A DNA stretch of 21,412 bases from a virus (IMGVR_UViG_3300007963_000064:1-21412); one strand, 5' to 3'; shown: positions 9,255 to 14,545, counted from the stretch's first letter. The notes: generated by a model from the sequence alone, not told the origin. Numbers and translations: made by a program.

Positions 9255-10334
9255 ATGGCTACTACTGACTTCGGTGTCAATCATCCGATGGCGGTCAAAC
9301 ACTGGTCTGCCGATTTGATGAAGGAGGCTTTGAAACGGACGTATGCGTTACAGTTTATGTCCAAAGGCAAAGATTCCATCGTTCAAATCAAGACTGAGCT
9401 AAACAAGAACGCGGGAGATCGCGTTCGGTTTGGACTTAGGATGCAGCTGACTGGTGACGGTATCGCTGGAGATGGCACCCTAGAGGGCAATGAAGAAGCA
9501 CTGTCGATTTACACCGACAATGTTTTCATTGACCAACTCCGTCAAGCTGTGCGCAGTGAAGGAAAGATGTCTGAACAACGCGTCCCGTTTTCCGTCAGGG
9601 CAGAAGCCCGCGACGGACTCGCCGATTGGTGGGCGGCTCGCATTGACGCAGGCTTCTTTAATCAGCTGGGCGGCAGCACGAGGGAATCAACTGTATACAC
9701 TGGTATGCAAGCTGCAACTGAGCCTGATGCTGACCATGTGATTTTCCATTCACAAGCAGCTGGCTCTGCTCATGCAAATGAGGGGCAGATTTCAGCCGGA
9801 GATACATTTGACCTGTCGGTCATTGATGCTTGCCGCGAACAGGCGACTGTGGGTTCACCGAACCCGATTCGTCCACTTCGTTTGCGAGGCGATGACTATT
9901 ACTGCATGTTCCTGCACCCTTACCAAGTTTACGACCTGCGAACGAATACCACCACTGGACAGTGGCTGGATATTCAGAAAGCAGCAATGAACGGCGGTCG
10001 AGTGCTAAAGAACCCAATCTTTACGGGTTCGCTGGGCATGTACAACAATGTGATCCTGCATGAAAGCACGAGGGTTCCTCCGGGTTCTGTTAGTGCTTCC
10101 AACGCAAGTGGGGTGGCTGTAAGGCGAGCAATCTTTGCTGGTGCGCAAGGTGGCGCAGTAGCATTCGGGCGCAAGTCTGGACGCAATACTTACACTTGGC
10201 GGGAGGAAATGTTCGACTACGGCAACCAACTGGGTGTCGCGGCGGGCTCAATCTGGGGCTTGAAGAAGACAGTTTTCAATGGCTCCGACTTTGCAACCAT
10301 TGTCGTTTCCACGGCAGCGGCTTCGCATAGTTAA
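9255..10334 (+). CDS. Major capsid protein, N4-gp56 family
   Basis: 359 aa, the usual length for this HK97-fold group. Hallmarks in order: MAVKHWSADLMKEAL (about 11-25), FGLRMQLTGDGIAGD with LEGNEEAL (59-83), IDQLRQAVRSEGKMSEQRVPFSVR (92-115), LADWWAARID (121-130) and the C-terminal YNNVILHES strand region. It forms the icosahedral shell. ATG 9255 follows AGAGGA at about 7 bases. A TTGACA at 9227-9232 has no -10 box in reach of a sensible start site, so transcription likely comes from upstream. It is followed by the putative decoration gene and a terminator, as usual for the most expressed head genes. Confidence 0.92.
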   Translation: MATTDFGVNHPMAVKHWSADLMKEALKRTYALQFMSKGKDSIVQIKTELNKNAGDRVRFGLRMQLTGDGIAGDGTLEGNEEALSIYTDNVFIDQLRQAVRSEGKMSEQRVPFSVRAEARDGLADWWAARIDAGFFNQLGGSTRESTVYTGMQAATEPDADHVIFHSQAAGSAHANEGQISAGDTFDLSVIDACREQATVGSPNPIRPLRLRGDDYYCMFLHPYQVYDLRTNTTTGQWLDIQKAAMNGGRVLKNPIFTGSLGMYNNVILHESTRVPPGSVSASNASGVAVRRAIFAGAQGGAVAFGRKSGRNTYTWREEMFDYGNQLGVAAGSIWGLKKTVFNGSDFATIVVSTAAASHS

Positions 10335-10351: not shown

Positions 10352-10774
10352 ATGGCGACTTATGAAGCAGATAAAGCCAAGTCAGGTGTCCAGCCTCGTG
10401 AGATTGAGACTGGAGCTAACGTAGTTCGGGCAAGTTACGTTTCAGAAGTAACTCACGCAGCAGCAGACGTTATTCAGTGCGTTAAGGTTCCGTCTGGAGC
10501 AATCATTGATAGCGTGGTTTATGCGGCCCCAATTTCGGGGTCTGCGCCAGCGCAAATGATGTGCCAAATAGGTGACGGGGATGACCCCAACCGATTTGGT
10601 AGCTCCACTTTAAGCTCGGTTGCATTTACTGGCAATTTGGCTTTGGGCTACCAATACTCACTTAGCGATGCAGCTGATCCATTCTATGACACCATAGATG
10701 TAACAATTGACGCTGGTGCGTTGACTGTTTCTCAAGGGTTTGTTTTGATCGTGACTTACCACTGTGATGACTAG
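10352..10774 (+). CDS. Probable head decoration/stabilisation protein
   Basis: 140 aa. ATG 10352 has an excellent ribosome site (CGAGGAGGATAA), implying high expression. The protein is beta-rich with many Ser/Ala/Gly/Val and has a C-terminal strand GFVLIVTYHCDD. An N-terminal extended segment is rich in charged residues. No signal or membrane segment. Its place right after the capsid gene and before a strong terminator is where small capsid-binding decoration proteins are encoded in N4-gp56-type phages. Function is therefore inferred from context. It could instead be another minor structural protein. Confidence 0.65.
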   Translation: MATYEADKAKSGVQPREIETGANVVRASYVSEVTHAAADVIQCVKVPSGAIIDSVVYAAPISGSAPAQMMCQIGDGDDPNRFGSSTLSSVAFTGNLALGYQYSLSDAADPFYDTIDVTIDAGALTVSQGFVLIVTYHCDD

Positions 10775-10781
10775 GTAACAC

Positions 10782-10811
10782 CGGGGGGTCTTTCGGGGCC
10801 CCCCGTTTTTT
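10782..10811 (+). terminator. Rho-independent terminator after capsid genes
   Basis: CGGGGGG (10782-10788) pairs with CCCCCCG (10799-10805), with a 10-base loop that can pair further inside, followed directly by six T (10806-10811). It ends the head transcript 7 bases after the decoration stop. The next start codon is only 12 bases beyond, so later genes need read-through of this site. Confidence 0.9.
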
Positions 10812-10823
10812 AAGGGAGCAAGT

Positions 10824-12275
10824 ATGGCTGTAGAAGTCGGGCTTCACGCCATTGTGGAGCAAATAGCGGATTCAATAACCTCAGAAAACACTGAGTTAAC
10901 TGAGCGGCTGATCTGGCCAGCACTCGATCAATTTCCTTTTGTTCCCCAGCTTTGGTATCACGCGGGCAATCATTTATTTAGTATTGGCAAACTAACATTG
11001 GCGGCGGTTGCTTATGAAAAAGCAATTGACCTAGAACCTAATGCCGTTTGCTATGCCAATCTAGGCGCCTCCTATCGCCAGCTAAATCGGGCCGATGATG
11101 CTCTAAGAGTATTAACCCAGTCAGTTGAAATTGACCCCGAAAGCAAGTCGGCATGGACGAACCTAGCTGCTTGCTACATTAATGAGGGAACCCCGGAGAT
11201 CGGGCTTGAACACGCCAACAAAGCGCTGGCAATTGATCCAACCTTTAACCGGGCCCAATGGAACGCGGGCCTTTGTCACTTGGAGCTGGGAAATTTTCGT
11301 AAAGGCTTTGAGTTTTACGAGGCCGGGTTGGACCATGATCGAATTTTGCGAAGCTATGGCAACGCCAAGTACCTGACCGACCCCGTACACCAGAACGTAA
11401 AAGGCAAGAACATCAAGCTGATTGTCTATGGCGAACAAGGGATCGGTGATGAGCTTATGTATGCCAGCATGTTGTTTGATGTCTGCAAGGACTACGACGT
11501 CATCTGGGATCACCACCCGCGTTTAGGATCTTTTTACAAAGCGGCATTTCCCTATCTTGAAACACACCCCACGCGCAAAGACGACCCAGCGGAGGCGCCG
11601 TGGGTCAAGAGAACCTTCGCGCCTTATTTTATTTCTATAGCCGACCTCGGCAAATGGTACAGGCCAAGCAGGAACGCCTTTAGCAAAGCGTGGCAAGAGC
11701 ATGGTCCTTTTTATAGCCCAGACCCGAAGCTGACAGAGCAGTACAGGTGCGGCTTAATGGCCATGGCTGGCGGTAAAAAAATTATCGGCATTTCAACTAG
11801 GGGCGGCGTATTAAAGACTAACAGGTTTTATCGTTCGGTTAAGCCCGACCACCTAGATGATCTGCTTCAGGATGAACGCTATCACTTTGTAAATTTAGAT
11901 TATGAAGAGGTGGACGTCATGGTAAACGAGATGAACACAAAGCGACCGGGCTCTGTAAGCTATTGGCGCTCAATTAATCATCATTTTAATTACAAACACA
12001 CGGCAGCATTAATAGCGGCTACTGACGCCTTTGTAACGGTTTGCCAGTCGGCGGCGCATCTTTCGGCAGCTATGGGGCACCCAACAGCTGTGCTAACACC
12101 CAAGCGGCCAGCATGGAGGTACGGATTAAAAGGCAAGCGGTGGTATTGGTATCCATCTAAAAACGTATCTTTATTCAGGGCGCCAGAAGATGGCGCGTGG
12201 GATGAGCCGGTTGCAAATGTAAAGGATTGGCTGGAAAAGATCCTGCACCGCAAACAGGAGAAAAAAAATGCGTAG
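10824..12275 (+). CDS. TPR protein with GT-B/heptosyltransferase-like glycosyltransferase domain
   Basis: 483 aa. ATG 10824 follows AAGGGAGCAAGT. Residues about 40-170 are four TPR-like helical pairs (AAVAYEKAIDLEPN; DALRVLTQSVEIDPES; GLEHANKALAIDPT; FRKGFEFYEAGL). From 195 on there is a GT-B-like fold: YGEQGIGDELMYAS (202-215) matches the first motif of TPR-linked GT9/GT41-like enzymes. A later D-A-F-V-T-V-C-Q-S-A-A-H-L segment (401-413) with MGHPTAVLTP resembles the nucleotide-sugar site of the C-terminal lobe. It likely transfers a sugar to a protein or glycan. It is the first gene of the coupled cassette and overlaps the methyltransferase by 8 bases. Substrate not readable. Confidence 0.8.
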   Translation: MAVEVGLHAIVEQIADSITSENTELTERLIWPALDQFPFVPQLWYHAGNHLFSIGKLTLAAVAYEKAIDLEPNAVCYANLGASYRQLNRADDALRVLTQSVEIDPESKSAWTNLAACYINEGTPEIGLEHANKALAIDPTFNRAQWNAGLCHLELGNFRKGFEFYEAGLDHDRILRSYGNAKYLTDPVHQNVKGKNIKLIVYGEQGIGDELMYASMLFDVCKDYDVIWDHHPRLGSFYKAAFPYLETHPTRKDDPAEAPWVKRTFAPYFISIADLGKWYRPSRNAFSKAWQEHGPFYSPDPKLTEQYRCGLMAMAGGKKIIGISTRGGVLKTNRFYRSVKPDHLDDLLQDERYHFVNLDYEEVDVMVNEMNTKRPGSVSYWRSINHHFNYKHTAALIAATDAFVTVCQSAAHLSAAMGHPTAVLTPKRPAWRYGLKGKRWYWYPSKNVSLFRAPEDGAWDEPVANVKDWLEKILHRKQEKKNA

Positions 12276-12789
12276 GTGGGATGTTTTAGCGGCGATGATA
12301 CACGCGGAGGGTTTCACAAAATTTGTAGAAGTCGGAACAAAAGAGGGACGAACGACCGCGCACATATTGCAAGAGTGCCCAAACGTGCAGGTTACAGCGC
12401 TTGACCCTTGGTGCGAAATGCCCTCCCAGCGGCCAGTGTCAGGCGGTGAGGTATATAACCAGTGGGACTTTGATGCAATCGAAAGCAGCTTCTGGGAAAG
12501 GGTGGATCCTTGGAAGGACCGACTGACTTTCCTGCGGCGCACCAGTGAAGAAGCGGCACCTGCTGTAGACGATGGCTCGCAGGATCTTGTGTTTATTGAT
12601 GCAGCGCACGATTACGACAGCGTTAAGCAAGACATTGAGCTGTGGATTCCAAAGGTAAGAAATGGCGGCATCTTGGCGGGCCATGACTTCCAGCACTCAT
12701 TTCCGACAGTCATGGATGCGGTGGCTGATTCTTTTAATTTAATGTTTGTCGAGGTTATGCCTGACAGCGTTTGGTGGGTGAGATGTTAA
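12268..12789 (+). CDS. Class I SAM-dependent methyltransferase
   Basis: 173 aa, a short Rossmann methyltransferase. FVEVGTKEGRTT (19-30) is the glycine-rich SAM loop. ALDPW carries the acidic residue after strand 2 (D46). DLVFIDAAHDYDSVKQDIELW (106-126) and GGILAGHDF (133-141) match the Methyltransf_24-type methyltransferases that act on sugars or small hydroxyl groups in surface-glycan clusters. ATG 12268 has CAGGAG upstream and overlaps the previous gene by 8 bases. Placed between glycosyltransferases, it probably methylates a sugar made or moved by its neighbours (inference). Confidence 0.85.
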   Translation: MRRWDVLAAMIHAEGFTKFVEVGTKEGRTTAHILQECPNVQVTALDPWCEMPSQRPVSGGEVYNQWDFDAIESSFWERVDPWKDRLTFLRRTSEEAAPAVDDGSQDLVFIDAAHDYDSVKQDIELWIPKVRNGGILAGHDFQHSFPTVMDAVADSFNLMFVEVMPDSVWWVRC

Positions 12790-13514
12790 ATGTTGTTTAC
12801 TGGGTGAGAGGGGAAGAATACGCGGGGCTGGCAGTTCGTAGTGCGGAAACAATGAAGCGCGTATACGACGGCGCTAAAATAATAATTTACGCTGACCAAG
12901 AATGGCCGGTGTTTGCAGGCGGCAGCGTTGACGAAGTTATCTGTCTCCCCATACAAAAGATGATGCCGCACATGATTGCCAACGTGCATTGTCAAGTGCA
13001 TTACGTTGTCAACAAGGGCTTTGACCGGCTCACTCTGTTTTGTGACGCCGATGTACTGGCGGTTAAAAAGGCCGATCTGTCCCTGCTGACCCAAGACCTG
13101 ATAGTGACCAAGCGGGACCATGTGTATCTGGATGAAAACGGGGAAAAGTTAGTAGGGGTTGCAAGGCCAATGCCATACAACTATGGCGTCTTATTAGCCA
13201 ACCCGACGATGGAAGCGAAAGAAATTTTTATCTGGATGCGCGAACGCTTGGTAAAAATGGGCAGCCATTTGCAAGACTGGTACGGCAACCAATGGGCGCT
13301 AAGGGAATTGGTTGGTGGCTCTATGGATGAGCAGGCGCCACGAGAGGTTAAACGCGCCATGGCGTGGGGCCCCGTGTCGATCAAGGTTGAGGACTGTTCG
13401 ATGTGGAATTACCTGCCGCATGATGATGAGCCTATTAACAACAAATACTTTGTTCATGTTAAGGGGGGCGACAAGGTGCGCTTTCATGAAATCGCAGATG
13501 AGTTAGCAGCATAA
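12783..13514 (+). CDS. GT-A-like glycosyltransferase
   Basis: 243 aa from ATG 12783, which overlaps the methyltransferase stop by 7 bases; an in-frame TTG at 12771 is less likely. The N-terminal strand NVVYWVRGEEYAGLAVRSAETM and the A-K-I-I-I-Y-A-D strand fit a nucleotide-diphospho-sugar transferase fold. LTLFCDADVL gives a DxD metal/sugar-nucleotide motif (D88, D90). Downstream are NYGVLLANP and QDWYGNQWALRE, where acceptor residues usually lie. No membrane segment. Donor and acceptor unknown. It is joined by TAATG to the next glycosyltransferase. Confidence 0.72.
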   Translation: MLNVVYWVRGEEYAGLAVRSAETMKRVYDGAKIIIYADQEWPVFAGGSVDEVICLPIQKMMPHMIANVHCQVHYVVNKGFDRLTLFCDADVLAVKKADLSLLTQDLIVTKRDHVYLDENGEKLVGVARPMPYNYGVLLANPTMEAKEIFIWMRERLVKMGSHLQDWYGNQWALRELVGGSMDEQAPREVKRAMAWGPVSIKVEDCSMWNYLPHDDEPINNKYFVHVKGGDKVRFHEIADELAA

Positions 13515-14323
13515 TGTTTGACTTACCAAGAATCTTTATCGGGTACGATAAAAAAGAGCGCATTGCATGGCATGTGCTTGCGCACAGCATCATAGAAAGA
13601 AGCTCGGTTCCGGTGCTGATTTCGCCCATAGGTAACGAAACCATGGGGCCCGCCCTATGGGACAGGCCACGCGGCGAGAAAGACTCGACTGACTTTAGCA
13701 ATGCTAGGTGGATGATTCCTCATCTTTGTAACTACGAGGGGTTTGCCATCTTTATGGATTGCGACATGGTTTGTGATGGGGACATTGCCGAATTGTGGGA
13801 TCAGCGCAATTCAGACAAGGCTCTCGTATGCAGGAAGCACAACCACAAAGTAGTCGATGGAGAGCGGAAGTTTTTAGGCGGCGTACAGGCCGCCTATGAC
13901 AGAAAAAACTGGTCATCACTGATGGTGATTTCCTGTGCCCACCGATACTGGAAAAGCATTGATCCAGAGGAGGGCTCCGGCTTGGATCTGCATAAATTCA
14001 AGGGGCTGCCGGACAACAAGATTGGGGCGCTAAGCGGCTCGTGGAATGAATTACTAAAACCGGGCGAGGTGAATCCGCAAGAGTTTTACCCAAGCCTGTC
14101 GCATTTTACTTGGGGTGGGCCATGGCATGGCTGGACTAAATACTGGCAGACCGAACTGTGGACGCGGGAACTTTCTGATATGCTTGGCGGGGACAATCCC
14201 TGCGCGTATGTCAACGTGGGGTATGATGAGCGGGGAGTGTATATAGGAGGCGCTTTTCATGTACGGGCACAAGATGCACAAGCGGAAGCAGAGCAAGAAA
14301 CAAGGTCACGCGAAAGGGAGTAA
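13514..14323 (+). CDS. GT8-like glycosyltransferase
   Basis: 269 aa. ATG 13514 overlaps the upstream stop by one base (TAATG). IFIGYDKKERIAWHVLAHSI at the N-terminus, the segment STDFSNARWMIPHLC and IFMDCDMVCDGDIAELW give a DxD motif (D82, D84). A C-terminal HFTWGGPWH supplies the extra metal-ligand His region seen in GT8-like enzymes. This type is frequent in phages and in LPS/capsule clusters. The C-terminal 20 residues are Glu/Arg/Gln-rich and overlap the next microprotein gene. The substrate is unknown. Confidence 0.82.
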   Translation: MFDLPRIFIGYDKKERIAWHVLAHSIIERSSVPVLISPIGNETMGPALWDRPRGEKDSTDFSNARWMIPHLCNYEGFAIFMDCDMVCDGDIAELWDQRNSDKALVCRKHNHKVVDGERKFLGGVQAAYDRKNWSSLMVISCAHRYWKSIDPEEGSGLDLHKFKGLPDNKIGALSGSWNELLKPGEVNPQEFYPSLSHFTWGGPWHGWTKYWQTELWTRELSDMLGGDNPCAYVNVGYDERGVYIGGAFHVRAQDAQAEAEQETRSRERE

Positions 14324-14371: not shown

Positions 14372-14545
14372 ATGGCAAACTGGATTGAGGGGGCAATAAA
14401 GAAATCGGGCGCTTTGAGGCGCCAGCTTGGTATTAAAAAGGGGAAGAAGATTCCCCTAAAGACACTCAATGCTGCGGCCAAAAAGCCGGGGAAGCTGGGC
14501 CAGCGGGCGAGATTAGCTAAAACCATGAGAGGGTTTGGGCAGTGA
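14372..14545 (+). CDS. 57-aa basic protein
   Basis: ATG 14372, stop TGA 14543-14545 overlapping the GTG of the adaptor gene as GTGA. Sixteen Lys/Arg against one Glu; starts NWIEGAIKKSGALRRQLG and ends TMRGFGQ. Small basic proteins with a W-I-x-G-A-I-K-K-x-G-A-L start occur in other podovirus genomes next to connector genes, as far as I recall, with no known function. The ribosome site is weak. It could bind DNA during packaging or be a minor capsid component. Confidence 0.7.
   Translation: MANWIEGAIKKSGALRRQLGIKKGKKIPLKTLNAAAKKPGKLGQRARLAKTMRGFGQ

Follow-up and report, generated by a model that had tools for sequence, protein, structure and literature searches.

Why would a virus carry a block of glycan-modifying genes among the genes that build its virion? 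We address this question in a stretch of viral DNA of 21,412 nucleotides (IMGVR_UViG_3300007963_000064:1-21412, hereafter called the window), in which four consecutive genes, overlapping by 8, 7 and 1 bases, are located between the capsid and decoration genes and the gene for the head-tail adaptor. An earlier reading of this DNA from its letters alone (the sequence-only reading) had described such a cassette and leaned toward virion glycosylation over the alteration of host LPS or capsule; its gene coordinates and overlaps were confirmed, as was the slot, which is flanked by PF13252 and the decoration gene on the left and by PF24175 on the right. Here, we present evidence that the cassette is likely part of a portable module in which the capsid decoration protein (DEC) is joined to its own modifying enzymes and is O-glycosylated by them with a methylated glycan.

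Layout of the cassette and predicted folds of its enzymes

The features of the locus are the following.

9255..10334, + strand: major capsid protein (Phage_capsid_3; PF13252, 2.4e-79; phrog_334 major head protein)
10352..10774, + strand: capsid decoration/cement protein (DEC), 140 aa, proposed glycan acceptor (cement-protein profile matches; subtype tracks the cassette)
10658..10669, + strand: S103-L-S105-D106 motif of DEC, candidate O-glycosylation site (conservation in cassette DECs)
10782..10805, + strand: intrinsic terminator/attenuator in the gap between DEC and the cassette, then a T run (10-pair stem, 8 G-C)
10824..12275, + strand: TPR + GT-B glycosyltransferase (gene 1, TPR-GT), proposed initiating protein O-glycosyltransferase (Pfam TPR, AF2, structural matches)
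12268..12789, + strand: SAM-dependent methyltransferase (gene 2; PF13578)
12783..13514, + strand: GT-A glycosyltransferase (gene 3) with an invariant DxD (AF2, fold match, alignment)
13514..14323, + strand: GT8-like GT-A glycosyltransferase (gene 4) with an invariant DxD (PF01501, WbbM profile, invariant residues)
14372..14545, + strand: very basic ORF of 57 aa (translation; near-identical ORF at the same place in the related contig L004)
14542..15174, + strand: head-tail adaptor, SU10 type, the right flank, outside the co-inherited unit (PF24175, 9.2e-18)

The start of gene 3 was taken as the ATG at 12783; the mechanical ORF opens at the TTG at 12771. The 57-aa ORF separates gene 4 from the adaptor gene, so that cassette and adaptor are not immediate neighbors, and small arginine-rich ORFs are found at a similar place in many relatives. 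A 36.8-kb contig contains the same genes at 100% protein identity. Compared with contig L004, the cassette proteins have 77–91% amino acid identity, and the dN/dS ratios that could be measured are 0.04 (TPR-GT) and 0.08 (GT8-like). Many diverged contigs also share the gene order; consequently, the cassette is not a chance pattern. The GC content is flat (~0.49–0.51) and thus offers no compositional hint that the cassette was acquired recently. The window's cassette contains no gene for sugar-donor synthesis, and PADLOC gave no defence-system match.

The N-terminal part of the gene 1 protein contains TPR repeats (Pfam, 2.4e-19). Its remainder has no Pfam glycosyltransferase match, including to the GT41 (OGT) domain Glyco_transf_41 (PF13844) up to an E-value of 1, and NCBIfam returned generic TPR matches only, far below cut-off. 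In an AF2 model built from 52 relatives (pLDDT 94), residues ~197–479 match the GT9 heptosyltransferase 1psw (Z 18.7, 3.3 Å over 259 residues) and the C-terminal half matches TibC (Z 17.3); OGT and SPINDLY head the model's Foldseek list, and GT9 scores higher by VIA-align. From this model, gene 1 is confidently predicted to encode an N-terminal TPR domain fused to a GT-B (GT9-like) domain. Gene 2 matches Methyltransf_24 (PF13578) above cut-off (1e-19, 71.8 bits versus 26.3). Its PHROG label, ‘DNA methyltransferase’, was set aside, as that match covers part of a 599-position profile and the neighboring genes are glycosyltransferases.

The AF2 model of gene 3 (pLDDT 94) has a clear GT-A fold, and its DxD motif (D88, D90) is invariant in the alignment. 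The protein has no family match, no relative in the annotated phage collection and no useful sequence match among solved structures. Its best fold match is PBCV-1 A64R (2p73, Z 16.6), tied with glycogenin (16.5). A64R is a virus-encoded glycosyltransferase for a capsid glycan, but PBCV-1 is an algal giant virus with an unrelated capsid, and the fold match is uninformative on the acceptor. Gene 4 matches the GT8 family (PF01501) at 4.7e-4 with 20.3 bits, under the cut-off of 24.3, and is hence filed as GT8-like only; it has a profile match to WbbM (6u4b, 0.0013) and an invariant DxD (D82, D84). Profile searches thus recovered Methyltransf_24, which the sequence-only reading had proposed looking for, and the TPR repeats, whereas the glycosyltransferase families were weak (GT8, sub-threshold) or absent (gene 3). 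It was structure prediction that revealed the GT-B fold of gene 1 and the GT-A fold of gene 3, and glycosyltransferase folds, whose absence would have spoken against that reading, are therefore present.

The domain layout of gene 1 is the same as that of FlmG from Caulobacter, a cytoplasmic enzyme whose TPR domain binds flagellin and which suffices for modification when the sugar is present (PMC7591256). Both have an N-terminal TPR substrate-binding domain and a C-terminal GT-B domain within one soluble protein, a likeness of layout between proteins of 596 aa (FlmG) and 483 aa (gene 1). Enzymes of the FlmG-like class transfer nonulosonic acid to the protein bound by their TPR domain; like them, gene 1 is predicted to be cytoplasmic, with no membrane anchor. 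FlmG acts on a polymer-forming surface protein, as gene 1 would if DEC is its target. In contrast, FlmG is bacterial and located near flagellins, whereas the window's enzyme is phage-encoded, adjoins the decoration gene and is accompanied by a methyltransferase and two GT-A enzymes. The bacterial relatives of the phage TPR-GT (~23–33% identity) form arrays with GT8-like genes, few of them near flagellin. According to the FlmG precedent and these arrays, phages have probably adopted a protein-glycosylation pair from bacteria and linked it to their cement protein. Within the bacterial loci L223–L300 (e.g. L226, L229, L252, L299), arrays of several TPR-GT genes are accompanied by a GT8-like gene that closely resembles its phage counterpart; most of the fetched bacterial loci are without a flagellin motif nearby.

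Distribution of the cassette and co-inheritance with the decoration protein

We surveyed 86 slots between the capsid and adaptor genes, after removing redundancy at 95% capsid identity, using a survey and a DEC profile that were seeded from the window's relatives, with many loci fetched by TPR-GT itself. The slots are divided into 28 that are compact and cassette-free (0.4–1.3 kb), 56 with a TPR-GT (2.3–6.2 kb) and two with other inserts. TPR-GT, methyltransferase, GT-A and GT8-like genes occur in this order in 17 of the 86 slots (lineages). Contigs in which the window's gene order was found at this position have proteins that are ~30–90% identical. The sequence-only reading had proposed looking for the same four genes in other podoviruses, and they are clustered there in the same slot, not single and scattered. 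The first gene is nearly always a TPR-GT and the last is mostly GT8-like, while the middle genes, which are methyltransferases and sugar-tailoring types, are swapped: 31 other slots have a methyltransferase of another family (Methyltransf_23), and some cassettes add radical-SAM, cupin, epimerase or sulfotransferase genes.

Several individual loci have distinctive contents. A Cupin_2-type gene is added in L117:10945-11295 and L170:11558-12043, and a radical SAM/SPASM gene, an unusual companion of glycosyltransferases in a phage structural module, is found in slots L065, L146, L164, L178, L184 and L189. The L077 and L126 slots are enlarged without glycosyltransferases and contain a large glycine-rich or unknown ORF instead. 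The major capsid gene of a related contig is broken after codon 104 by a group I intron (L031:3387-3689; RF00028, 71 bits), and in L088:9826-10284 the TPR-GT gene is split by ~460 bases encoding an HNH-endonuclease-like ORF.

Viral relatives of the TPR-GT were found on at least 570 viral stretches. Among the best 80 of these loci, 65 of the 68 with enough upstream sequence have the gene directly downstream of a DEC or capsid gene. Searches of the open-licence literature turned up no report of TPR-GT genes at the capsid loci of phages. Among annotated phages, the cassette was seen only in the environmental genome MW202512; it is absent from the phages with related capsids that infect Paracoccus, Rhizobium and Microcystis. 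Two cassettes are located in bacterial assemblies, one on a Thiotrichaceae MAG contig (L239) and one on a scaffold of 525 kb from a Reyranella in culture (L228; Reyranella sp. CPCC 100927, NZ_VOHA01000004.1), where no tyrosine integrase was found.

Contrary to an initial assumption, a decoration gene is present in cassette-free phages too. The gene after the capsid gene belongs to one family with two subtypes, which are remote homologues (hhalign probability 97), and the cassette-free phages have the other subtype. For each gene, we determined whether its nearest match outside close kin had the same cassette state. The agreement was 80/81 for DEC, compared with 66/86 for the capsid, 66/86 for the adaptor, 46/65 for the scaffold, 38/50 for the portal and 44/62 for the next gene (Fisher 8e-6 for DEC versus capsid or adaptor, at most 4e-5 versus all compared genes), though these counts and p-values overstate independence, and sign tests are powerless, because the cassette was gained or lost independently only a few times (2–5). 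When other kin cut-offs were used, or TPR-GT-fetched loci were dropped, DEC agreement was 91–100% while capsid and adaptor agreement was 37–85%; for loci from the major capsid protein query alone, DEC agreement was 49/49. Unsupervised clustering of DEC sequences reached a purity of 71/81 with two clusters and 79/81 with three.

The capsid tree contains five changes of cassette state, three of them forced by starred branches, with two supported independent pairs. Four lineages (L030/L114, L084/L109, L029 and L198) have capsids nearest to those of cassette-free phages, yet cassette-type DECs, and in L030, L114, L084, L109 and L198 the adaptor's best match is still a cassette-free relative. In the distant capsid lineages L172, L191 and L204, a cassette-type DEC adjoins the TPR-GT. 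Since DEC adjoins the cassette, linkage contributes to their co-inheritance, and linked transfer alone could explain it, although the adaptor, which flanks the cassette at its other end, shows no such association. Overall, these comparisons are strong but not decisive evidence that DEC subtype and cassette are inherited together.

The co-inheritance of DEC also bears on whether the cassette instead glycosylates another virion protein, such as the major capsid protein, the adaptor or a tail protein. Such an acceptor would agree with the cassette's placement among virion genes and with mycobacteriophages, whose capsid and tail-tube proteins are reported to be glycosylated at their C-termini (Freeman et al. 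2023, as cited in PMC11256854 and PMC12619734), but we consider it unlikely because it is DEC that tracks the cassette, whereas no such link is seen for the capsid, adaptor, scaffold, portal or next gene. In the mycobacteriophages, as is proposed for the window, phage-encoded glycosyltransferases act on virion proteins. The glycosyltransferase genes of phage Maravista are described near the genome's 3′ end, whereas the TPR-GT cassette is next to the decoration gene and is inherited with it. A paper on the ‘sugars’ of an Acinetobacter phage was rejected as a precedent, as it concerns a host-derived glycolipid and not a phage cassette.

It is quite unlikely that the cassette alters glycans on the surface of the host (those of LPS, capsule or flagellin), as it might in superinfection exclusion. 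Phage glycosyltransferases often do so (PMC12619734), and in bacteria the TPR-GT relatives are accompanied by GT8-like genes and, in 7 of the 78 loci fetched, lie near a flagellin motif. However, the cassette is tied to the decoration gene across lineages and co-inherited with its subtype, and it has no flippase, polymerase or membrane-anchored enzyme. No membrane segment was found in the four proteins (no 19-aa stretch above 1.3, Kyte-Doolittle), which argues against LPS or capsule modification; the membrane flippase and polytopic glucosyltransferase of gtrABC-type seroconversion are likewise absent, with four soluble proteins and no matching Pfam family. It is very improbable that the slot is a passive (moron) site taking arbitrary genes, as its variable middle genes, the other inserts in L077 and L126 and the homing endonucleases that invade the region in relatives might suggest, given its nearly constant first and mostly constant last gene, the purifying selection and a DEC subtype that follows the cassette.

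The proposed acceptor and its candidate site

By profile comparison, the window's DEC is a homologue of the Ig-like cement proteins of phage Pam1 and Ralstonia phage GP4: a profile of 35 DEC homologues of the cassette subtype matches their solved structures (7eel_H, 2.6e-5; 8h89_J, 3.4e-4). In GP4, 540 copies of the cement protein form trimers that cover the outside of the capsid (PMC9698820). The DEC family is variable, with a mean column identity of 31%, and serine makes up 9.9% of cassette DECs versus 4.8% of cassette-free ones (p 2e-12). In the aligned cassette DECs, the conserved residues are Ser or Thr at position 105 of the window's protein (91%), Ser103 (about two-thirds) and Asp106. 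The motif S-x-[S/T]-D occurs in 33 of 53 cassette DECs and 2 of 28 cassette-free ones (p 1e-6), where shuffling predicts 6.1 and 1.2. In the alignments with the Pam1 and GP4 cement proteins, nothing clearly corresponds to the S-x-S-D segment, which may be a glycan acceptor site or merely structural.

A strong intrinsic terminator separates DEC from the cassette. A comparable hairpin and T run was found in 23 of 53 cassettes, 8 of 168 control windows and 4 of 28 cassette-free slots, a pattern that fits the production of abundant structural proteins followed by enzymes at a lower dose.

Virion glycosylation, the reading favored from the sequence alone over host LPS or capsule, is thus supported by the adjacency to DEC, the co-inheritance of its subtype, the FlmG-like architecture and the lack of membrane proteins; to it we add a probable acceptor, DEC, that had not been named. 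From these data we infer the catalytic steps, their order, the sugars and the modified site as follows. DEC would be made in large amounts together with the capsid protein, while the terminator after it would pass only some transcripts, keeping the enzymes at a lower level. DEC would be bound in the cytoplasm by the first enzyme's TPR domain, and the GT-B domain of that enzyme would place the first sugar on a Ser or Thr, plausibly within the S-x-S-D segment. The GT-A and GT8-like enzymes would then extend the glycan and the methyltransferase, whose conservation suggests an O-methylated sugar, would methylate it. Glycosylated DEC would bind to the outside of the capsid, yielding a sugar-coated head, with a benefit that may lie in masking, stability or adhesion.

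Implications for phage biology

More broadly, a large group of podoviruses may possess a portable unit that combines a cement protein with a dedicated FlmG-like O-glycosyltransferase and swappable sugar-tailoring enzymes, moves between capsid lineages as a single block, and adds glycans to the capsid surface at the short site S-x-[S/T]-D; we regard the case for this general claim as evenly balanced. The glycosylation of tailed-phage virions has been shown in few systems. Because enzyme, acceptor and even a candidate site can be predicted from a gene unit that recurs among phages, the proposal is directly testable by mass spectrometry or by co-expression in E. coli. The unit would also be a compact natural system for learning how TPR domains choose their glycosylation substrates. 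With TPR-GT relatives on so many viral stretches, sugar-coated capsids may be common among environmental phages and, if they are, there would be consequences for phage persistence, recognition and display technology.
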